This document shows, piece after piece, positions 52,163-63,991 of a stretch of 64,000 nucleotides of DNA (the stretch's first letter is position 1; the number at the start of each line of letters is the position of its first letter). This DNA comes from Candidatus Accumulibacter meliphilus. GTDB lineage: Bacteria > Pseudomonadota > Gammaproteobacteria > Burkholderiales > Rhodocyclaceae. The stretch covers positions 69,876-133,875 of the forward strand of contig QPGA01000003.1 in the NCBI GenBank assembly GCA_003332265.1, given 5' to 3'. The translations under genes were made by a program, and so were the position numbers. The notes beneath the pieces were generated by a model. That model had not been told where the DNA came from. It ran no database searches and worked only from the letters and a program-made list of their open reading frames with translations.

Positions 52163-52191
52163 TTGACAGGGCGGGCACGCGAACAGATACT
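52163..52191 (+). promoter_or_regulatory. Sigma-70 promoter candidate for the di-haem cytochrome cluster
   Basis: A perfect TTGACA (52163-52168) and GATACT (52186-52191) with a 17-base spacer. The start near 52198 leaves a 73-base leader before the ATG at 52271. The spacing and -35 are ideal, the -10 is 4/6. Confidence 0.6.
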
Positions 52192-52270
52192 GCCCTGCCG
52201 TCGACTGCGCTACCGACGAGTCTCCCATGTTTGGGGTTTCAAGCTGTTTGTGTCCGTAAGGAGAGAACGC

Positions 52271-54892
52271 ATGCAACGTACTCTGCTTGCCGCTTTGGCG
52301 GTGACGCTCATTCTCGGTGCTGGCTTCGGTGTTTTCTACCAACGCGGCATCAATATCGGCGACGCGTATGCGCAAGTTGCAGCGGCTGTCCCGCTTGCCG
52401 CCCCCGCCGAACGAAGCCTTCCGGAAGTGTCGATTATCGACCAGGACGCGCCGTATCATGAAGCCTGTGCCCGCGAAGGACTCAGCGAGTCGGAATGCGT
52501 CGGACGGCTGATCTGGTTCAAGGCCACTGCCGGTAACGACCGCTTTCATACCTATACCTTCCAGCAGCGGATTGGCGTCCTGGTCGACTGGTTTCGCGTC
52601 CTGCGTTCCGACCAGCGCGACGATCGCTTCTGGGCCTGGGGAATCATCAACGATCCCTCGTGCTGCAAACCCGGCGCTCCCGACTGCCCGGCAAAATCGG
52701 CGGCGGAAACCTATGGCTTCGACTGGTGCCCTGGCGATGACGTGCTCCTGAAGTACGTCGGCAAACCGGGCTACATCGACCCCGCCTGCGGCCTCAAGGA
52801 TGCGGCCCTCGACCCGGACGACCCGCACAGTCAGGGTGGCAAGCTCGATCAACGGCACTCGGCTTGCGATCTCAAGTTCGGCACCTCCACGGGTGCCCTG
52901 GGGATTCGCAAGTTTCCCAACCCGCGCTTCGACGCCGCCAAGTGGCAGGCCTTGAATGGCGAGCCGGGAAGCTGGTCTGGTTTTGACCGTCCGCTGATCG
53001 ACAAGACCGGCATCGCCTCCGATCAACGGGTGAGCCGCTTATCCGATGGCTCGGTCGAGCCGCCGTTCCTGATCGGCACTTCCTGCGGCTCCTGCCATAT
53101 CGCATTCGATCCGCTCAATCCACCGGCCGACCCGGCGCATCCCAAGTGGGAGAATCTCAAGGGACTGATCGGCAACCAGTACACGCGCATGTCCGAACTG
53201 CTCGGTTCGGGCCTGCCAATGAGCAGTCTCGAGTATCAGATGTTCGCGCACGCCCGTCCCGGCGTCACCGACACTTCGGCGATTTCACATGACCAGGTCA
53301 ACAATCCGGGGACCATCAATGCCCTGATCAATGTGGCGCAGCGGCCGGTATTCAAGGGTGAAGTGGTGACCAAATGGCGCAAGGCGGCGAGTTGCGGCAG
53401 CGAGACTGACGCGAGCAAGTGCTGGTGCGAGCCGGGGCGCGAAGGCAAGTGCTGGCTGCGCAGCACTCGCGACGACGACACCACGCCGGTCAATCTCGGC
53501 GGCCAGAAAGTTCTATTGCCCGGCGTCCATCACATCCTCAAAGGCGGCGAAGACTCGACCGGCGCGCTGGAAGCGATCCAGCGCGTGTACTTCAACATCG
53601 GCTCCTGTTCCGAGCAGTGCTGGGTCAATCATCTCGCCGACATGCGCGAGGTGGACCCGGAGCAACGCGGTTTTGGGCAGACGCCTTTCGATATCGGCCA
53701 GTGCCGGCGCGATTGCCCGAACTTCCGGGCCGTCGAGGACCGCTTGCAGAACGTGCTCGATTTCTTTGCCTCGGCCGAGTCGGATCAGACCGACCTCTAC
53801 GCGGCGCTGGCCAATGCTCGCCAGGCGGGTTCGACCGGGGTGGCCTATACTCGCGCCGATCTGGTCCGCGACCTGGAAAGCGAATTCGGCGCCGGTGCCG
53901 TCGGCCGCGGACAGCTGGTTTTTGCAGAGAACTGCGCGCGCTGCCATTCGAGTATTCCGGAGAGCGAAGGCGGCTCGTTCAAGAATCGCGACTTCGCCGC
54001 CGCCAGCGAAACGCATCCGCGCCAGGTAAGAGCCGATTTCCTGGGCAACGATCAGCCGACACCGGTCACCGAAGTCGGCACTTTCCGTTGCCGCTCGCTG
54101 CACTCCAACCACAAGGCCGGCAACCTGTACATGGAGTCGGCGTCGGACACCCTGCGCCAGCGCGAGGTCGTTGCCGACATTCCCGAGCGCGACGAGCTCA
54201 AGGATGCCGGTCGCGGCTACATGCGCAATGTCTCGCTGGTCAATATCTGGGCGACCGCGCCGTTCATGCACAACAACGCCATCGGCCCGGAAATCTGCGG
54301 CAAGCCGGCGAACAAGGCCAACGATTTCCAGCGCGCCCGCTATGTCGACAGCGGCGGCCAGCTGCTCGCACAGCAGCCCGATTGCCTGCGCTACGACCCG
54401 AGCGTCGAGGGCCGCTTCGAGCTCTACAAGCTGTCGATGTTCGAGCTGCTGAACCCGAAGGAGAGAGGCACGAAGCGGACGCTGACCAACGCCGACCTGA
54501 TCATCGACGTCGGCATCCGACCGCTGGACGGCAAGACCGAGAAGCCGCTGTTCGGTTTCGGGCAGGTCACGATTCCGGCTGGCACCAGCGCCGGCTTCCT
54601 GAATGGCCTGATGCACAAGCAGCTGATCGGCGACCTGTTCCTCGCCAAGCGCCACCCGGACAAGCTCGAAGCCGCCGGCAAGGCGAGCCTGTTGCCGACG
54701 CTGCAGACGATCGCCGACGAGATCATCAAGAATCCGTCACGCTTCGTCGAAATTTTGCGCGAGCAACGCGATTTCATCAGTGCCAACTACCAGACCTGCA
54801 CCGAGGAGATCGAAAACCAGGGTCACCGCTTCGGCGAGGATCTTTCCGAGGCCGACAAGAAAGCGCTCACCGCTTTCCTGGCCACGCTGTAA
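52271..54892 (+). CDS. Large di-haem c-type cytochrome, 873 aa
   Basis: AAGGAGAG precedes the ATG. An N-terminal hydrophobic segment (residues 4-22) acts as signal or anchor. Haem c motifs are CGSCH (272-276) and CARCH (555-559). A later block, ATAPFMHNNAIGP, resembles the APYLHNGSVP loop of MauG/RoxA/CcpA-type di-haem enzymes. The protein is unusually rich in other Cys (for example CCKPGAPDC, CWCEPGREGKC, CSEQC), suggesting disulphides and an extracytoplasmic site. It is longer than typical di-haem peroxidases (about 330-480 aa). First gene of the cluster; substrate unknown. Confidence 0.8.
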   Translation: MQRTLLAALAVTLILGAGFGVFYQRGINIGDAYAQVAAAVPLAAPAERSLPEVSIIDQDAPYHEACAREGLSESECVGRLIWFKATAGNDRFHTYTFQQRIGVLVDWFRVLRSDQRDDRFWAWGIINDPSCCKPGAPDCPAKSAAETYGFDWCPGDDVLLKYVGKPGYIDPACGLKDAALDPDDPHSQGGKLDQRHSACDLKFGTSTGALGIRKFPNPRFDAAKWQALNGEPGSWSGFDRPLIDKTGIASDQRVSRLSDGSVEPPFLIGTSCGSCHIAFDPLNPPADPAHPKWENLKGLIGNQYTRMSELLGSGLPMSSLEYQMFAHARPGVTDTSAISHDQVNNPGTINALINVAQRPVFKGEVVTKWRKAASCGSETDASKCWCEPGREGKCWLRSTRDDDTTPVNLGGQKVLLPGVHHILKGGEDSTGALEAIQRVYFNIGSCSEQCWVNHLADMREVDPEQRGFGQTPFDIGQCRRDCPNFRAVEDRLQNVLDFFASAESDQTDLYAALANARQAGSTGVAYTRADLVRDLESEFGAGAVGRGQLVFAENCARCHSSIPESEGGSFKNRDFAAASETHPRQVRADFLGNDQPTPVTEVGTFRCRSLHSNHKAGNLYMESASDTLRQREVVADIPERDELKDAGRGYMRNVSLVNIWATAPFMHNNAIGPEICGKPANKANDFQRARYVDSGGQLLAQQPDCLRYDPSVEGRFELYKLSMFELLNPKERGTKRTLTNADLIIDVGIRPLDGKTEKPLFGFGQVTIPAGTSAGFLNGLMHKQLIGDLFLAKRHPDKLEAAGKASLLPTLQTIADEIIKNPSRFVEILREQRDFISANYQTCTEEIENQGHRFGEDLSEADKKALTAFLATL

Positions 54893-54911
54893 GGAAACGG
54901 GAGATCACATC

Positions 54912-55871
54912 ATGCGACTGCCGCACACCTTTGCCCTGAACCACTTGCGCGCCGCGCGCATCCAGCGCAGCCAGCGCACAGACCGGATGTCACGCTTGGC
55001 GCTTGGCGCGCTGGCGACGCTCACCGCGCTTGCCCTGGCCGCATGCAGCAAGCCGGAACCCCCGGATATCAAGTTCGCGCCTTACGCCAAGAGCTACCAG
55101 ACGAAAATGAGCCTGGCGCAGGTCGACCATCAGTATCCGATTCCGCCCGCCGAGCTCGCGAAGATCACGCCCGACTATCTGGCGACGCTGGACGAGGAGC
55201 AGATCGATCAGATCTACGCGCGCCTGACCGCGGGGCCGATCCCGGACGGCGCTTTCGAAGGTCGCATCCTGTTGCCGCGCGGCAGCAGCGGCAAGTTCCG
55301 GCTTTCCGAGCTGGTCGGTGGCTTTGGCGGCACCGTCCTGCACCTCAAGGGCCTCGTCGTCGAGGAAATTGGCGAAGTGCTCTGGCGCGGCAAGGTCTTC
55401 TTCCGCGACGAAGGCGTGCTGCGCAACCGCATCGAGGATCTGTCACTGCTCAAGAAGCTCGGCCTGGTCGAAGGCGAGCCGAAGAAGATGAACTACGCGG
55501 GCAAGGAAACCTGGTTGCTGTTCCCGGCCAAGCTTTATTGTGGTCAGAGTCTGCTCGACTCGCGGCGAGAGTCGATCATCATCGACTACTTCTTTACTGA
55601 CGAAATTGCCGGCTACCAGGAAAACCCCGACTACCTCGCCGGCCGGCGCGGGCTCAGGGTGCGCGACGAAATCCGCATGATCCGTCCCGGCTTCTACCTT
55701 GGCCGCGCCTATCTGGACCGTGGTTTTGCGCTCAATTTCACGCTTTACGACAAAGCCACCGACGAGAAGGCACAGGCGAATTTCGTCGCCACCGGCAAGG
55801 TGCAGGAAGACTGCTGGCCGGGAACGCAGCAACGCACCGTCGTCGCTGCTGGCAAGCCTGCCAAGCCCTGA
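54912..55871 (+). CDS. Lipoprotein of unknown function within the cytochrome cluster
   Basis: A 319-aa product with lipobox LALAAC; the ATG at 54912 (GGGAG upstream) gives a long basic leader, while the ATG at 54987 would give a more usual lipoprotein signal. The mature part has no haem motif. Blocks such as FRLSELVGGFGGTVLHLKGL and WRGKVFFRDEGVLRNRIEDL match no family I recognise. It follows the large cytochrome by 19 bases and precedes the next by 29, so it is probably a structural or tethering partner of the haem proteins. Confidence 0.65.
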   Translation: MRLPHTFALNHLRAARIQRSQRTDRMSRLALGALATLTALALAACSKPEPPDIKFAPYAKSYQTKMSLAQVDHQYPIPPAELAKITPDYLATLDEEQIDQIYARLTAGPIPDGAFEGRILLPRGSSGKFRLSELVGGFGGTVLHLKGLVVEEIGEVLWRGKVFFRDEGVLRNRIEDLSLLKKLGLVEGEPKKMNYAGKETWLLFPAKLYCGQSLLDSRRESIIIDYFFTDEIAGYQENPDYLAGRRGLRVRDEIRMIRPGFYLGRAYLDRGFALNFTLYDKATDEKAQANFVATGKVQEDCWPGTQQRTVVAAGKPAKP

Positions 55872-55900
55872 GTCTGGCGCAGCCGGGGCATGGGCTGACG

Positions 55901-58132
55901 ATGCGTCTGCCTGCGACCTCGCTGGCGATGCTGCGGCGGCTTGCCGTGGGTCTGGCAGCGGGCTTGGCAGCGGGCTTGGCAGCGGGCTTGGCAGCACTCG
56001 TCGCCATGCCGGTGCTGGCGACTGAAGCGCGGCCGACGGAGGCGGCGCCGGTGCCGGTGGCTGCGCTGCCGGTCGTCAATCCGGCCGACCCCGGCGAGCA
56101 TCTCCCGAGCCAGGGGCGTTCGCTTTTCGAGCAACTGTTTGCCGTGCGTCGCGGCGCGTCGGCGGAGATCGAAGTGCCTTTTCCCTTCGAAGCACTGTTG
56201 GCCCGCATCGATTCGCAGTTGCTGCGCGACCCGGCGAGCCTGCTGCCGCCTGCCAAGCGCGTACTGATTCCTCTTGGCCGCTCGCTGCAGCGGACGGCGG
56301 CTGCACCGGACTACTTCGCCTATCCACGAGTTCTGGTGGCCGTCGACAGTCCGCCGGTCGCCGCCGGCATGCCACTGCTCAAGGACCGCCTGTACATCGG
56401 CTACCAGGAGCAGTCGGCGGTCATCGAGATCATCAGTTACAACGAGGCCGCCGGGCGCTTCGAATTCCAGTTGCTCAAGGATTACCGCGCCGGCAGCAAG
56501 CCGCGCCTGATCTACGCCAACCGCAGCATCTGTTTTGCCTGCCACCAGAACGGTTCGCCGATTTTTTCGCGGGCGCTGTGGGACGAGACCAACGCCAATG
56601 CCAAAGTGGCGGCGACGCTGCTGGCCAGCGGTCGAAGCTTCTACGGCATTTCCCCAGACCGCGGCGTCGACGTCCCCTACGCCATCGACAATGCCAGTGA
56701 GCGCGCCAACGGCTTTGCCCTGACCCAGCTTCTGTGGCGCGCGGGCTGCGGCGGCAATTCGGCCGCGGCGCAAGGCTGCCGCGCCGGCCTGTTCGCCGCC
56801 GCCTTGCGACACGCGCTCTCCGGCGGTCAGACCTGGACCCCTGATGCCCGCTTCATGCAGGCGGTTGACAAGCGGCTGCGCGAGCAGGCGCGGCGCCGCT
56901 GGCCGGGCGGCCTGAGCGCCGGTAATCCCGACATTCCCAACCGCAACCCGCTGCAGGCGCTTGACAGCTGGCCCGCGGATAGCGCTGCGCGGGCGGCTGT
57001 GGCGGCGGTGCCGGCGCGCTTCGATCCGCTCTTGCCGCGCCCAGCCGGGGCGCTGTGGCGACCGGACGCAGCGGATGCGCTGCGGCAACTGCTGGCTGGC
57101 CTGGCGGAGTTTGTCGCCGACAGCGACCGGCGGCAATTGGATAGTGCGCTGGCGCGCTTGGCGCCAGCTGTCACAGAGCGCCTGAGCGTGCCCTGCCGGA
57201 TCGACAGCAAAGTCGCTTCGCGCTGGTCCTTGCGCTGCACCGCTGCGGGCGGGAGTCTGCTCGCCGGAACACTGTCGATGCAGGCGGGAAAACCGAGCGG
57301 AGGGCGGCTGGCACGGCTGACGCTGCCTGCTGGAACGGCCTTGAACGGCGTCGATCTGACGCTCCTTGACGAGGCGACGCCGAGCGGCGCGACCCTGCTG
57401 CCGCAGGTCGGGGGCCTGCCGGCCCGCACCGCCGCTGGCAGCGCCATCGGCAGCATTGGAATCCGCCGCAATGCAGGCGGCGGTGTTGGTGTCGATGGGG
57501 CCGACGGCGAGGTGACTCTGGAAATCCGCCACGACTTCAGCGTCGTGCAACAGGCGATCGATCGCCTGGCGGCGGGGCGCGACGCCGCGAATCTGTTCGG
57601 CCCCATGCCTTTCCCCCGCGAAAGACTCTTCGCGGCACTGTTCGCCGAGCTTGGCATGCCGGCCACGCCAGCGTGCTGCGCGGCTGCCGAGCATCTGCCA
57701 CCCGCACAGCTGGAAGTGGCCGCCGTGGCGCCGGGTCAGACACCGAGCAGCGCCGGCGATCCGCTGCTGCGCAGCTTTCAACCCTATTGCGCCGCCTGCC
57801 ACCAGACCGCCGAGACTTTTCCGCCGAATTTTCTGCAAGGCAGTCCGGCCGAAGTCGATGCCAGGCTCCGCCACTGCGCCCCGCGCCTCTACGTGCGCCT
57901 GGCCATGGCCGATGTCCCGCCGGCGCAGCGCGCGAAGACGCCAATGCCGCCGGAAAGCATGTTGCCGGCTTTTGCCAGCGACGCTCAAGCATGGCGCAGC
58001 AGCCCGGTGCGCGCCGCACTGCTCGCGCAGGTGACGCAATGGCTGCGCGCCGAAACCGGTCAGTCGCCGCAACTCGAAACGCTGCTCGCCGCCGGCTACG
58101 AGGCCCTACGCCCGTGTTTGCCGGCGCACTGA
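55901..58132 (+). CDS. Di-haem c-type cytochrome, 743 aa
   Basis: Signal peptide containing four near-identical GLAA units, then a mature protein with haem motifs CFACH (211-215) and CAACH (630-634), more than 400 residues apart. The region between, with Ala/Arg-rich helices and a beta-rich part around 430-520, matches nothing I know. The spacing of the two haems differs from the RoxA-like pair downstream, so this is a separate family. No strong ribosome-binding site is visible. Operon position fits a partner in the same electron-transfer assembly. Confidence 0.72.
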   Translation: MRLPATSLAMLRRLAVGLAAGLAAGLAAGLAALVAMPVLATEARPTEAAPVPVAALPVVNPADPGEHLPSQGRSLFEQLFAVRRGASAEIEVPFPFEALLARIDSQLLRDPASLLPPAKRVLIPLGRSLQRTAAAPDYFAYPRVLVAVDSPPVAAGMPLLKDRLYIGYQEQSAVIEIISYNEAAGRFEFQLLKDYRAGSKPRLIYANRSICFACHQNGSPIFSRALWDETNANAKVAATLLASGRSFYGISPDRGVDVPYAIDNASERANGFALTQLLWRAGCGGNSAAAQGCRAGLFAAALRHALSGGQTWTPDARFMQAVDKRLREQARRRWPGGLSAGNPDIPNRNPLQALDSWPADSAARAAVAAVPARFDPLLPRPAGALWRPDAADALRQLLAGLAEFVADSDRRQLDSALARLAPAVTERLSVPCRIDSKVASRWSLRCTAAGGSLLAGTLSMQAGKPSGGRLARLTLPAGTALNGVDLTLLDEATPSGATLLPQVGGLPARTAAGSAIGSIGIRRNAGGGVGVDGADGEVTLEIRHDFSVVQQAIDRLAAGRDAANLFGPMPFPRERLFAALFAELGMPATPACCAAAEHLPPAQLEVAAVAPGQTPSSAGDPLLRSFQPYCAACHQTAETFPPNFLQGSPAEVDARLRHCAPRLYVRLAMADVPPAQRAKTPMPPESMLPAFASDAQAWRSSPVRAALLAQVTQWLRAETGQSPQLETLLAAGYEALRPCLPAH
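55949..55996 (+). repeat. Four 12-bp tandem units inside a signal-peptide coding region
   Basis: Units GGTCTGGCAGCG, GGCTTGGCAGCG (twice) and GGCTTGGCAGCA encode GLAA four times in the hydrophobic core of the signal peptide of the 743-aa cytochrome. Gain or loss of units keeps the frame and would change core length. Confidence 0.9.
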
Positions 58133-58156
58133 GAACCAGCAAGAGGGGAACACAGC

Positions 58157-59683
58157 ATGAACGAACTGAACGGACAGCAAAAAATAGCGAAAAGCCCCTG
58201 GAAGCGACGCTTCATCATTCTCTTCATCCTCACCGTCGTCTTGCCGATGCTGGCCGTGGTCTGGCTGGTACAGCGCTTCGGCGGCGACGTCCCGGTGGAC
58301 TACGCCAGCCCGACCGAGCACTTCAAGTACGGTTCCACTGGCGGCGAACACGAGATGGGTTTCCCTTACTGGATCTGGCGGGTGCTGCCCGACGTCTGTC
58401 CGCAGTATCTGCCCGGCAAGGGCTACCAGTCGCTGGGAATGGTGTTCGAGAAGAACGCCGACGGCAGCGACCGCGACCTGCCGGTCGGCACTTCGCAGCG
58501 CCGCTACCAGGGAATCGACCGCGTCTTTGTGAACTGCGCAGTCTGCCATACGAGTACCGTGCGTACTGCCGCCGACCAGCCACCGACGATCGTCCTCGGC
58601 ATGCCGGCCGCGACTTTCAACATGAAAGGTTTCGAGGAGTTCTTCTTCCACTGCGCCGCCGATCCGAAGTTCTCCAAGGAATTCATCCTGCCGGAGATTG
58701 AACGTCAGGGCGGCCAGCTCGATCTGCTCGACCGCTACGTGGTCTATCCGGTGGCCATTGCCATCATGCGCGACCGCGTGCTGGCGCTCGCCGGGCGCTT
58801 TGACTGGGTCTCCAGACAGCACGCATGGGGCCCGGGACGCGTCGATACCTTCAACTCGGCGAAAGTGATCTTCAATTTCCCGATGGCCCATCTCGATCCC
58901 GACGAGTTCGACGCCCCGGCCGACTTTCCCTCGCTGTGGCGGCAACGCCAGCGCAAGGAGCCGCAGGAGATGCAGTTGCACTGGGACGGCAACAACACCA
59001 CCGTCGAAGAGCGCAACAAGAGCGCCGCCTTCGGCACCGGCACGACGCCGCCGACCATCGACCTCGAACGCATCAGCCGCGTCGAGGACTGGATCCTGGA
59101 GGTCACGCCGCCGAGCTTCAGCCAGTTCTTCCCGGTCGACGCCGAACTGGCGCAGCGTGGAGCGCCGATCTACAAGGCCTATTGCGCCAACTGCCACGGC
59201 GCCTCGGGCAGCGATTTCAGCGGCGAGCTGGTCGGCAAAGTGACGCCGCTGGCCGAGATCGGTACCGACCGGCGCCGCCTCGATTCATACACCTACACGC
59301 TGGCGGTGAACCAGGCCACGCTCTACGCCGGCTACCCGTGGCGCTTCACGCACTTCCGCAAGACTCACGGCTACGCCAACATGCCGCTCGATGGCGTCTG
59401 GCTGCGCGCGCCCTACCTGCACAACGGCTCGGTGCCCAGCCTGCGCGAACTGCTCGAACCGGCGGCCGCCCGGCCCGCGAGCTTCTATCGCGGCAACGAC
59501 GTCTATGACCCGCTCAAGGTCGGCTTCGTCTCCGATCAGGCACAGGGTAACGGTCCGCCGTTTTTCCTTTTCGACACCACCGCTCCCGGCAACGGCAATG
59601 GCGGCCACACCGGCAAGGCCTACGGCACCGAGCTGAGCGCCGACGAAAAGACCGCCTTGGTCGAATTCATGAAAACCTTCTGA
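58157..59683 (+). CDS. RoxA/CcpA-superfamily di-haem cytochrome, 508 aa
   Basis: One N-terminal transmembrane helix (about 17-38) anchors a periplasmic domain with haem motifs CAVCH (127-131) and CANCH (343-347). The signature LRAPYLHNGSVPSLRELL lies after the second haem, as in RoxA-type di-haem oxygenases and related peroxidases. GAGGGGAA precedes the ATG. It is a clear paralogue of the next gene: both share FKYGS(T/I)G.EH..G.PYWI and the GYxSLG block. Predicted reaction: oxidation using O2 or peroxide at haem, with unknown substrate. Confidence 0.82.
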   Translation: MNELNGQQKIAKSPWKRRFIILFILTVVLPMLAVVWLVQRFGGDVPVDYASPTEHFKYGSTGGEHEMGFPYWIWRVLPDVCPQYLPGKGYQSLGMVFEKNADGSDRDLPVGTSQRRYQGIDRVFVNCAVCHTSTVRTAADQPPTIVLGMPAATFNMKGFEEFFFHCAADPKFSKEFILPEIERQGGQLDLLDRYVVYPVAIAIMRDRVLALAGRFDWVSRQHAWGPGRVDTFNSAKVIFNFPMAHLDPDEFDAPADFPSLWRQRQRKEPQEMQLHWDGNNTTVEERNKSAAFGTGTTPPTIDLERISRVEDWILEVTPPSFSQFFPVDAELAQRGAPIYKAYCANCHGASGSDFSGELVGKVTPLAEIGTDRRRLDSYTYTLAVNQATLYAGYPWRFTHFRKTHGYANMPLDGVWLRAPYLHNGSVPSLRELLEPAAARPASFYRGNDVYDPLKVGFVSDQAQGNGPPFFLFDTTAPGNGNGGHTGKAYGTELSADEKTALVEFMKTF

Positions 59684-59693
59684 GGAGCCGACG

Positions 59694-61169
59694 ATGAGCA
59701 TGCGATCCTGCAGGAACTGGTTCCGCGCCATCGGCGTGGTGATCATCGTCACGATCGTTGTCGGCGGGGTGATCGGCTACGACCGCGGCTTCCGCGAACG
59801 TCCACAGCCCGATTGGGTAACGGCCGATTTCGAGACGCGCTTCAAATACGGCTCGATCGGCGCCGAGCACGACGCCGGCATCCCCTACTGGATCTTCTAC
59901 GTCCTGCCGCGCGTCTTTCCCGAAAAACTGACCCAGGACGGCAAGGTCCTTCCCGGTGGCTACGCTTCACTCGGCGTCCCCTGGGAGCAGGGCCAGGAAC
60001 TGCCGGCCGGCTTCAGCAAGAAAACCATCGGCTTTCCGCGCGTCGCCAACAACTGCGCCGTCTGCCACACCACCAGCTACCGCGAATCGCCCGACGCCAA
60101 TCCGGTCTTCGTCGTCGGCGGTCCGGCGCATACCACCAACGTCGAAGGCTTCTTCCGCTACCTGATCGACTGCGCCAAGGATCCGCGCTTCAATGCCGAC
60201 ATCCTGATGGCCGAAATCAATCGCGTCACAAATCTCGACTTCATCGACCAGCTCCTCTACCGCTTCTTCGTCATCCCGATCACCAAAAAGCGCCTGCTCG
60301 AACGCGAGCAACAGTTCGCCTGGATCTACCGCCCCGACTTCCCCGACTGGGGCCGTGGCCGCGACGACGCCATGAACCTCACCAAATACTTCATGATCGG
60401 TGCTCCCATGGACGACACCTTCGGTCCCACCGACATGCCCTCGGTGTGGAACCTCAAGAAGTACGTCTGGGACAAAGGCCACCGCATGAATTACGCCGGT
60501 GACAGCAGCGACGCCTACTCGGTGATCATGGACTCCGCCCTGGGCCTGCTCGGCGCTGCGCCCGCCAACAAGCAGGAGTTCGTCGAGCAGGTGCAATGGC
60601 TGCACAGCTACCTCTCCGAATTGCCACCACCGAAATACCCCTTCGCCATCGATCAGGCAAAGGCGGCCGAAGGCAAAGCCCTGTTCGACGCCAACTGCGC
60701 CAGCTGCCACGCCAGCGAACTCACCGGCCGGCCGCTAGCCCTGGCTGAAGTCGGCACCGACCGGGGGCGGCTGGATTCCTGGAACAAGGGCGCGGCGATC
60801 AAGGCCAACCAGGTGGTCAAAGAGATGGGGCTGGAACGTAAGGGACTGGTCGAGGAAGACCTGATCGGCTATGTCGCGCCGTTCCTGGACGGCATCTGGC
60901 TGAAGGCGCCGTATCTGCATAATGGCTCGGTACCTACTCTGCGGGATTTGCTGGAGCCGGTGGGGCAAAGGCCGACGGTTTTCTGGCGGGGTTATGACGT
61001 GTATGACCAGGCGCGGGTCGGGTTCGTTAGTGATACGCCGGCGGCGAAGCGCGTTGGGACAAGGCTCGATACTGGCAGTATAGGTGGCAGCAACCAGGGG
61101 CACGAGTTTGGGACGGCGTTGTCGGCGGCGGAGAAGGAGGCGCTGGTGGAGTATTTGAAGACGCTGTGA
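59694..61169 (+). CDS. RoxA/CcpA-superfamily di-haem cytochrome, 491 aa (paralogue)
   Basis: Same plan as its neighbour: transmembrane helix (about 13-30), CAVCH (121-125), CASCH (335-339) and LKAPYLHNGSVPTLRDLL. GGAG precedes the ATG by 5 bases and the gap to the previous gene is 10 bases. Tandem paired di-haem paralogues of this type are known in Pseudomonas aeruginosa as the fatty-acid 10S-dioxygenase/7,10-diol synthase pair, which offers one model for function; this is an analogy from architecture only. Last gene of the cluster. Confidence 0.82.
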   Translation: MSMRSCRNWFRAIGVVIIVTIVVGGVIGYDRGFRERPQPDWVTADFETRFKYGSIGAEHDAGIPYWIFYVLPRVFPEKLTQDGKVLPGGYASLGVPWEQGQELPAGFSKKTIGFPRVANNCAVCHTTSYRESPDANPVFVVGGPAHTTNVEGFFRYLIDCAKDPRFNADILMAEINRVTNLDFIDQLLYRFFVIPITKKRLLEREQQFAWIYRPDFPDWGRGRDDAMNLTKYFMIGAPMDDTFGPTDMPSVWNLKKYVWDKGHRMNYAGDSSDAYSVIMDSALGLLGAAPANKQEFVEQVQWLHSYLSELPPPKYPFAIDQAKAAEGKALFDANCASCHASELTGRPLALAEVGTDRGRLDSWNKGAAIKANQVVKEMGLERKGLVEEDLIGYVAPFLDGIWLKAPYLHNGSVPTLRDLLEPVGQRPTVFWRGYDVYDQARVGFVSDTPAAKRVGTRLDTGSIGGSNQGHEFGTALSAAEKEALVEYLKTL

Positions 61170-61287
61170 TTTGGAATAGGCAGAAGAAGCCGTGAAATCG
61201 TGGAATCTCGAATCCCAGCGGCGGCTCGATGTACTTCGAGAAGTGTTCTGCGAAACGCAACGATTGATTGAACCGGGAAACCGGGGG

Positions 61288-61310
61288 AAACCGGGGACAG
61301 ACCCCGGTTT
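61288..61310. repeat. REP-like palindrome
   Basis: AAACCGGGG, loop ACAGA, CCCCGGTTT: a perfect 9-bp stem, preceded by two further AACCGGG copies (61271-61277 and 61279-61285). The core GGGGACAGACC is common in REP elements mobilised by REP-associated tyrosine transposases. No transposase is present in the window. Confidence 0.65.
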
Positions 61311-62614: not shown

Positions 62615-63991
62615 TCAGCGCGCTGGCGCCGGCTGACTTCCTCCCAGATCGCGGATGAAGCGCTGAAATTCCTGGTTGCTCAGCAAGAGCTCGCGACCGG
62701 CCGCGATCAATTCGTCGACCTGCGCCTCCTTTAACGAAAAGCTGGTCGGAATCTGGTTCAGGAAGAGTTTTCGCTGAGCTTGCGGGACGTTCTTGAAGTC
62801 GATGTCGACGAAATAGGATTCGACCGCTTGTCCGGGTGTTGACAGTTCCGCCGCCCAGCGCTTGATACTGCTCTGCATGAGGGCCATCGTTGCGGCGTTG
62901 GTGCGATGCAACTGGACGTCGGTCACCAGATTGACGGTATCGGCCATCGATGGCGGGGCCTTGCTCAGTTCCATGCCGTATTGCGGCGAAGTCGAGGCAT
63001 TGACCGAGATGACGATGAAACGTCGTCCGGGTACGCCGCCAAGCGAGCCGAGCAGATTTCTTGCGCCGCCGGCCAACTCGATCATTTCGTAGATTGCCAG
63101 GAGGCCCAGGTTGTCGGTAATGCCGCCGTCGACCAGGTGGATATAGCGGCGCTGGTCTTTGAGCGCGTAGCTGTTGAGGCCGTCGACGACATGCGCCAAC
63201 TGCGGCGAGCGGTTGGCACCGGTCTGCAAGTCTGTCAGGAAGGTTGGGGCGCGATCGCCACAGCCTTTGCGGTTTTCGAGCACCAGCGGATGAAACAGGA
63301 CCGGCACGGCGGATGAAGCAGTGACGGCGCTGGCAATCGGAAACGAAGACAGGTCCGAGCACAGCAGATCAAAGTAATCCTGGAGGAAGGAAAAGCGTAC
63401 GCCCCGACCGAGATCGGTGGCATTGATCACGATCAGCGGCCCGTCCCCCTGCTGCAGGTCAGCGAAGGTCGCGCCCTTGAACACACTGCCGTCGTAATAA
63501 TTGGCCGCCATCTCGGTACGGCCACGTTCGGAGAGCAACATTGCCGGGTCCAATAATCCCTGCATCAGTTCAGCGGAGATGTTACGGCGCAGGAAGTCCT
63601 TCTCGAAATCCGTAAAGATCTTGTCGCCATACAAGCCGAAATACGCGGCCGTGAAACTGCCGCCCGATACCGAGCTGATGGTGTCGATTTCGTCCAGCAG
63701 CCGTTGCGATTGTCCACCGAGCTCGATGCGGGTGTCGCGCAGCGCCTGCAGAACGCCGTAAGCCAGTGCGGCGGCACGGGTGCCGCCGCCAGAAAACGCC
63801 AGGATCATGGTCGCTTCGTCCGAGCGGCCGGAATGCACCGCTTGGGTGATCGAGTACCTACCGGGTGACTCGTCTTCGGCGATAATGGGTTCGTTGCTTA
63901 TCTTGCCGTACGACGCGCAGGCCGAAAGCAGCGGCAGGAAAAGTGCCAGCAAGACGGCGAGGTGCTGGCGGCCGAAGAGAGAACTGTTCAT
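62615..63991 (-). CDS. Patatin-like phospholipase, predicted lipoprotein
   Basis: A 458-aa protein with lipobox LLSAC (Cys25), the oxyanion Gly-rich loop FSGGGTRAAALAYG (about 67-80), the nucleophile elbow SSVSGGSF with Ser109, and the catalytic Asp in VDGGITDNLG. Patatins hydrolyse acyl ester bonds of lipids with a Ser-Asp dyad. The first Gly of GxSxG is Ser, a variant frequent in this subfamily. AGGA precedes the ATG, 9 bases from the window edge. Lipidation would place it at the envelope. Confidence 0.87.
   Translation of the reverse strand: MNSSLFGRQHLAVLLALFLPLLSACASYGKISNEPIIAEDESPGRYSITQAVHSGRSDEATMILAFSGGGTRAAALAYGVLQALRDTRIELGGQSQRLLDEIDTISSVSGGSFTAAYFGLYGDKIFTDFEKDFLRRNISAELMQGLLDPAMLLSERGRTEMAANYYDGSVFKGATFADLQQGDGPLIVINATDLGRGVRFSFLQDYFDLLCSDLSSFPIASAVTASSAVPVLFHPLVLENRKGCGDRAPTFLTDLQTGANRSPQLAHVVDGLNSYALKDQRRYIHLVDGGITDNLGLLAIYEMIELAGGARNLLGSLGGVPGRRFIVISVNASTSPQYGMELSKAPPSMADTVNLVTDVQLHRTNAATMALMQSSIKRWAAELSTPGQAVESYFVDIDFKNVPQAQRKLFLNQIPTSFSLKEAQVDELIAAGRELLLSNQEFQRFIRDLGGSQPAPAR

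Follow-up and report, generated by a model that had tools for sequence, protein, structure and literature searches.

The stretch analyzed here comprises 64,000 nucleotides of Candidatus Accumulibacter meliphilus (GenBank assembly GCA_003332265.1, contig QPGA01000003.1, positions 69,876 to 133,875 of the forward strand; hereafter the window), from a source genome of 4.7 Mb that is 91% complete. An earlier note on this DNA, made from its letters alone, had described a cluster of genes for four di-haem cytochromes and a lipoprotein and had proposed a single extracytoplasmic oxidation system. The five consecutive open reading frames (ORFs), here named A873, Lip, C743, D508 and E491, were recovered at the same positions, all on the forward strand (Table 1). 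The best claim that emerges from our analysis is that they probably form a conserved operon for lipid oxidation outside the cytoplasm, with RoxA-type proteins at its core.

Table 1. Features of the five-gene cluster, with positions in the window
Feature	Positions	Strand	Basis
Sigma-70-like promoter, TTGACA-17-GATACT	52163..52191	+	10/12 consensus matches
A873, 873-aa di-haem c-type protein, taken as divergent member of the RoxA/CytoC_perox superfamily	52271..54892	+	motifs, profile comparison
Lip, lipoprotein with LAAC lipobox, predicted barrel like lipocalins or fatty-acid-binding proteins	54987..55871 (alternative start 54912)	+	sequence and AlphaFold2 (AF2) model
C743, di-haem protein, new family	55901..58132	+	no Pfam/NCBIfam match over cut-off, no PDB relative
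D508, RoxA-like di-haem protein, D clade	58157..59683	+	NF040606, PF21419
E491, RoxA-like di-haem protein, E clade, paralogue of D508	59694..61169	+	NF040606, PF21419

Organization and conservation of the cluster

Relatives of A873 were collected by a search of genome contigs, and the following counts refer to the best 80 of 171 confirmed relatives. The nearest of them belong to Candidatus Accumulibacter, and by their record titles the cluster-bearing taxa, among them bacteria of wastewater and soil, are Accumulibacter, Zoogloea, Thauera, Aromatoleum and Denitromonas; Thauera aminoaromatica (L058) and Aromatoleum tolulyticum (L046) are examples. A was present in 80 loci, Lip in 79, C in 75, and D and E in 66 each; 61 loci contained all five genes, each terminated by a stop codon within the stretch. 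This neighbourhood comparison bears out the proposal of one co-conserved system, since the order A-Lip-C-D-E was the same in 61/61 five-gene loci and the flanking genes were not conserved. As judged by eye, nearly all missing genes fall past the end of the contig or locus; the exception is locus L006 (loci are numbered with L, genomes with G), in which about 0.8 kb is present after C without a match to D. Some loci have wider gaps (e.g. L076 and L079; between D and E in L011, L013 and L066). Comparison of 772 ORFs revealed no conserved sixth gene: the commonest flank family was present in only 19 of the 81 neighbourhoods compared, and examples of the most frequent flank families look in part like shadow ORFs. 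Given the fixed order and the unconserved flanks, the unit consists of five genes. Matches split into two adjacent pieces were seen for C743 in L002 and L008 and for E491 in L037, and they look like draft-genome frameshifts or decayed genes.

Exactly two CxxCH motifs are present in each of the four large proteins, as described previously (A873, 272/555; D508, 127/343, and E491, 121/335, these two counted from zero; C743, 211/630). The same number was found among stop-terminated relative ORFs in 79/80 cases for A, 66/68 for C, 64/64 for D and 60/61 for E, and is therefore not a matter of chance.

The five-gene unit is accessory. A873 was detected in 7/41 genomes of a family sample and 17/300 of an order sample (both counts include distant A-like matches), and in 5/398 of a phylum sample, four of these being distant. 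Phylum samples of 398 genomes gave Lip in 2, C743 in 2 and D508 (E <= 1e-40) in 4, with the source genome counted each time. No published description of the cluster was found in the open-access papers searched, subscription papers lying outside the search.

Some details of the operon had to be revised. The proposed span 52163-61169 holds at its end, but position 52163 marks the -35 box of the promoter-like site (also a TTG), the first gene starting at 52271. Among the gaps, given as 10-29 bases, those of 29, 24 and 10 bases are correct, whereas a first gap of 19 bases requires Lip to start at 54912 (319 aa). The start at 54987 (294 aa) is favoured because of the LAAC lipobox and the lengths of Lip homologues (mostly 290-311 aa in a sampled listing); Lip thus probably starts there, and the first gap would be 94 bases. 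The promoter does not stand out by number, as the scan gave 2 sites against 2.1 expected, yet it coincides with a conserved block: in an upstream alignment of 12 sequences, TTGACA-17-GATACT is present upstream of A in seven (the window, L002, L004, L005, L008, L010 and L073) and was not seen in L007, L012, L016, L025 and L074. Directly 3' of E491, a GC-rich inverted repeat (accggggacagaccccggt) occupies positions 61260-61310; it may be a terminator or a repeat element.

Proteins encoded by the cluster

D508 and E491 carry the RoxA/MauG signature that the earlier note had recognized (RAPYLHNGSVP and KAPYLHNGSVP, respectively). Profile searches placed both over the cut-offs of NF040606, named 'di-heme cytochrome C peroxidase' (199.9 and 173.8 bits; cut-off 150 bits), and of the RoxA-like PF21419 (58.3 and 64.1 bits; cut-off 26.7 bits). 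The narrower assignments did not hold: the NCBIfam RoxA, RoxB and RoxC models gave 43.9-94.6 bits, far under their cut-offs of 900-1000 bits, and PF03150 CCP_MauG had no match at E <= 1 for any of the five proteins (it had one elsewhere in the genome). As for NF040606, A873 stayed under the cut-off, C743 and Lip gave no match, and a literature search by family names found no paper testing the function of this family. The best solved-structure match of both proteins was RoxA of Steroidobacter cummioxidans (4b2n), aligned near haem 2, the APYxHNGSVP motif and the C-terminal Gly-His. The latter aligns with H641 of RoxA, which passages of PMC10837239 give as the second ligand of haem 2. The C-terminal His is invariant (H484 in D, H470 in E; H852 in A873 is assigned by motif only). 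Judged by eye, D508 and E491 would each have an N-terminal membrane anchor. By these sequence criteria, D and E are members of the RoxA-like superfamily. They share with RoxA, RoxB and RoxC two c-type haems, PYxHNGSVP, the C-terminal Gly-His ligand and the PF21419 domain; unlike those enzymes, they are shorter (491-508 aa), have an anchor that looks uncleaved, occur as a pair and share their operon with A873, Lip and C743.

In a maximum-likelihood tree with its root drawn at the midpoint, 34 D-like and E-like proteins fell into two groups with support 99/98, 18 rows on the D side and 16 on the E side; L105 forms a long branch in it, and the composition of the L103 E-like protein is unusual. 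Members of the five-gene, rhizobial and L103 clusters (the last two are described below) occur on both sides, and therefore D and E separated before these clusters diverged. LHWDGNN is kept in all 18 D-side rows, and LHWDG in four distant E rows.

A873 had been regarded as a large partner or conduit. It possesses the motifs APFMHNNAIG (663) and NQGHRFG (849) at the expected places, and hhalign comparison of its profile with those of D508 (5.5e-10) and E491 (4.6e-11) covered the region from haem 2 to the signature. Single-sequence matches were weak and under the cut-offs (NF040606, 32.8 bits, E 4.4e-8; PF21419, 18.1 bits); PF21419 matched 18 of 38 A873 relatives at E <= 0.01, the best at 7.3e-4. 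Since no RoxA match was obtained against PDB sequences, membership rests on the profile comparison and the motifs, and we take A873 to be a third, divergent member of the RoxA superfamily rather than a mere conduit. Its N-terminus appears by eye to be a signal or an anchor. Among ten A-like proteins from outside the cluster, pattern search did not find the C-terminal motif in those of L102 and L106.

The haems of C743 are indeed more than 400 residues apart: the invariant C211/C214/H215 and C630/C633/H634 are separated by about 419 residues. Met682, after the second CxxCH, is also invariant and is a possible haem ligand. The protein does look like a new family, with no Pfam or NCBIfam match over cut-off and no sequence or fold relative in PDB. 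The AF2 model (predicted local distance difference test, pLDDT, 89.7) has a central beta barrel; it found no PDB fold match with E <= 1e-3 and none among viral models, the weak match to pyocyanin demethylase (probability 0.92, E 0.29) being a hint only. Membership of C743 in the RoxA superfamily was considered and rejected because its profile match to A873 and D508 is confined to 15-17 columns around one CxxCH. In L031, L044, L045, L046 and L048, the match to C743 is interrupted, ending at query 417-461 and picking up again at 545-566, and L087 and L096 have shorter C-like proteins; as these relatives apparently do without the central barrel, it seems dispensable. By eye, C743 has a putative signal peptide. 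A perfect 12-bp tandem repeat (3.6 copies, 55953-55995) lies at the N-terminal end of the gene and codes for GLAA repeats in this apparent signal peptide.

For Lip, a search with 55 members found no Pfam family over cut-off, and PDB sequences gave nothing sensible. Its AF2 model (pLDDT 83.6) matched 4mve best (E 8.8e-4, probability 1.00, template modelling score 0.61 by target), followed at E 0.07 or worse by NanoLuc, retinoic-acid-, fatty-acid- and bile-acid-binding proteins, lipocalins and unrelated folds. The fold is probably lipocalin-like. Because of this predicted fold, resembling lipocalins and fatty-acid-binding proteins, Lip is more likely a substrate binder than the tether proposed before. 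The lipobox ends at residue 20, and its Cys is followed by Ser, which we take to mean outer-membrane sorting.

Relatives outside the cluster and their neighbours

Fourteen loci with A-like genes outside the cluster were examined (L087, L088, L089, L096, L097, L098, L100, L101, L102, L106, L107, L111, L112 and L113), six from 21 plasmid records with a match and eight from genomes; other distant matches, such as G710 and the second copy in G717, were left out. A GMC oxidoreductase of one BLAST-related type adjoins the A-like gene in 10 of the 14, and six of these ten also have a patatin (evidence from BLAST, annotations and, for L097, L098, L101, L102, L106, L107 and L113, Pfam). The ten loci are not independent, as L100, L101, L111 and L112 are of one type and L102 and L113 of another. 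L102 and L113 encode GMC-patatin fusions of 1562 and 1537 aa, the patatin domain coming after GMC in one reading frame; this domain scored 26.6 bits in L102 (cut-off 27.7, narrowly missed) and 30.1 bits in L113, and tblastn with the L106 patatin gave 1.7e-29 and 2.9e-24, respectively. A patatin also follows GMC in L101 and L112 (annotation; Pfam for L101) and in L100 (BLAST match), whereas none is annotated in L111, and in L106 it lies beyond the A-like gene on the other strand.

In each of the four rhizobial plasmid loci (L100, L101, L111 and L112), a single run of genes comprises flavin oxidoreductase, D-like, 143-aa membrane protein, E-like, A-like and GMC, in this order (L111 by annotation only), with patatin present in 3/4. 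This run resembles the five-gene cluster in its D and E clades and its A-like protein, and differs in having GMC and mostly patatin and no match to C743 or Lip, neither of which was matched anywhere in the plasmid collection. No published description of it was found in the open-access papers searched.

In L097, a tight run on one strand consists of an A-like gene, GMC, a Lip-like gene (30% identity, E 1e-20), a gene whose product fits no family, a DyP-type peroxidase (PF20628 over cut-off; TIGR01413 under it, with 80.4 against 100.5 bits) and a gene for a 398-aa protein with no Pfam or NCBIfam match. Another arrangement was observed in L096 (3723-9367) and L087 (3309-9190), where A-like, C743-like, single-CxxCH and membrane proteins are encoded together without Lip, D or E; in L096 this set lies between genes that are presumably mnmE and mnmG. 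No recognised partner was seen beside the A-like genes of L088 and L089.

Seven loci outside the cluster contain D-like genes (L100, L101, L111, L112, L103, L104 and L105). In 6/7, the same type of flavin oxidoreductase (PF00724 for L101; 51-54% identity between rhizobia and L103/L104) is encoded near D, and in 2/7, L103 and L104, an animal-type haem peroxidase (PF03098; E 4.8e-109 and 6.7e-104) accompanies it. PF00724 proteins include enone reductases, and PF03098 proteins include fatty-acid dioxygenases. Haem peroxidase, flavin oxidoreductase and RoxA-like D form one run in L103 (2767-10559, with E-like also present) and L104 (4573-10219), possibly a bacterial fatty-acid oxygenation cluster of its own. 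L103 has an additional gene resembling alpha/beta hydrolases, under Pfam cut-offs, and L105 a GMC-alpha/beta-hydrolase fusion, over cut-offs.

Directly upstream of the five-gene cluster of L079 and on the same strand, a 901-aa gene matches the L106 patatin protein (E 3e-50). In the window, a patatin-like phospholipase gene (62618-63991, minus strand; PF01734 E 7.8e-15) lies 1.4 kb downstream of the operon and convergent with it. It is of another type and on the opposite strand, and no relatives of it were found in other loci (tblastn 1e-8; flanks up to 10 kb, often cut). Other contigs of the source genome carry one match to animal haem peroxidase (G000:C78:6113-7627, E 5.9e-157) and GMC-domain matches (on C28 and C45). 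Taken as an association without a background rate, the neighbours of A-like, D-like and Lip-like genes point to lipids.

Proposed function and alternative explanations

With a probability of about one half, we propose that the cluster encodes a five-gene extracytoplasmic lipid-oxidation system acting on an unsaturated fatty acid or isoprenoid, with D508 and E491 as an old RoxA-type pair. The hydrophobic substrate suggested before is made likelier by the patatin, GMC, haem-peroxidase and allene-oxide-synthase-like neighbours of related genes; its identity, the use of O2, the division of labour and the electron path we infer as follows. Lip, as a lipocalin-like barrel, would take up a hydrophobic substrate in the periplasm (unsaturated fatty acid, phospholipid acyl chain or isoprenoid). 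The membrane-anchored D508 would activate O2 (or peroxide) at its N-terminal haem and oxygenate the substrate, its C-terminal His/His haem handling electrons. E491 would then convert the product of D508, like the second enzyme of the Pseudomonas aeruginosa 10S-DOX/diol-synthase pair; A873 would perform a further oxidation or accept electrons from one, and C743, whose C-terminal haem may have a Met ligand, would hand electrons on. According to passages of PMC4496055, the FadCcp pair of P. aeruginosa, 10S-DOX (PA2077) and 7,10-diol synthase (PA2078), likewise consists of tandem di-haem paralogues with the same motif and acts on a fatty acid, the kind of substrate suggested by the neighbours of the cluster relatives; it differs in being a two-gene system with ORFs of 1905 and 1875 bp. 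The parallel with D and E is meant as an analogy in how such systems would work, with two di-haem paralogues encoded in tandem and acting on a fatty acid. The review PMC10837239 leaves RoxC without a function and suggests that unsaturated fatty acids in the cell wall of Gram-negative bacteria may be what it oxidises.

Several observations weigh against this reading. The alignments of the D and E profiles to 4b2n do not reach the F317/W302 pocket of active rubber oxygenases, and RoxC proteins, with a similar motif, showed no rubber-cleaving activity according to passages of PMC10837239. The E proteins of five-gene clusters have NYAGD, NWAGD or no pattern match, E491 lacking the LHWDG of D and of distant E proteins; this difference would fit a change of role of E in this lineage, as in a two-step enzyme pair. 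The signature His is replaced by Leu in 5/10 other A-like proteins (L097, L098, L100, L101 and L107), and the GMC neighbours mean that A-like proteins may be electron acceptors rather than oxygenases. The best structural match of Lip, 4mve, is named only by a locus tag, and that of the 398-aa protein of L097, an allene oxide synthase-lipoxygenase, is weak (E 0.0035). No lipase, GMC or peroxidase gene is part of the five-gene cluster, and patatin was found near it in only 2/81 neighbourhoods (the window and L079; BLAST with three queries). A873 occurs in 15/28 genomes of the genus. At the thresholds used for the phylum sample, no genome was shared between those with distant A-like matches (G340, G376, G479 and G522) and those with distant D-like matches (G383, G425 and G607), so the presence of A and of D/E is not always coupled.

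D508 and E491 could instead be true di-haem peroxidases that receive electrons from A873 and C743 and reduce H2O2 or lipid hydroperoxides to protect the envelope, with Lip presenting damaged lipid. Both formally match an NCBIfam family of that name, other peroxidases (PF03098, DyP-type) occur in related runs, and a lipocalin-like Lip would suit oxidised lipids too. Yet D and E lack a PF03150 match at E <= 1, their best solved relative is the rubber oxygenase RoxA, and the presence of patatin and GMC next to relatives suggests that a substrate is being processed; we regard such detoxification as a less likely but serious alternative. It is a still less probable explanation, though also a serious one, that A-like proteins are the electron acceptors of a GMC-type dehydrogenase of lipid alcohols or sterols, the cluster being a haem relay, without oxygenase chemistry, from an enzyme encoded elsewhere to the respiratory chain. 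The GMC genes directly adjoining A-like genes in most loci outside the cluster, the two GMC-domain matches elsewhere in the genome and the invariant Met of C743 would agree with it. However, the five-gene cluster has no GMC, neither GMC match of the genome matches the A-linked type (tblastn 1e-8), the RoxA-type signature and C-terminal His are kept in D, E and A, and the D-like genes of L103 and L104 are without a tblastn match to that GMC type, although a distant GMC, as in L105, would escape this search. MauG-like maturation, in which the di-haem proteins oxidise residues of a partner protein into a cofactor, appears very improbable: the MauG-type motif is shared and a LodA/GoxA CTQ oxidase gene is annotated near an A-like gene in Mesorhizobium, but the latter is a single locus, no candidate partner protein is conserved beside the cluster, and Lip and C743 match no known cofactor-bearing enzyme.

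Beyond the lipid-oxidation system itself, a wider and more tentative possibility is an undescribed periplasmic pathway of oxylipin type, in which three RoxA-superfamily enzymes would act in series on one lipid, fed by the lipocalin-like lipoprotein and wired by C743, and sister clusters in rhizobia and other Pseudomonadota would combine portions of this core with a patatin lipase, a GMC dehydrogenase, a PF00724 flavin oxidoreductase and partners resembling allene oxide synthase. If true, it would be a bacterial counterpart of plant and animal oxylipin chemistry, with c-type haem instead of lipoxygenase iron.

An abundant secreted cytochrome c has been reported in the Accumulibacter secretome (PMC12019908); it is not linked here to the operon because the passages do not identify that cytochrome. 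Judging from passages of PMC10837239 and PMC4496055, RoxA-type di-haem enzymes with known substrates are few, namely the rubber oxygenases and the P. aeruginosa fatty-acid pair. The present analysis newly names two protein families, C743 and Lip, and points to a recurring association of RoxA-like proteins with GMC dehydrogenases and patatin lipases. A conserved multi-protein version of these enzymes offers a concrete gene set, in bacteria important for wastewater treatment, for the question of what RoxC does.

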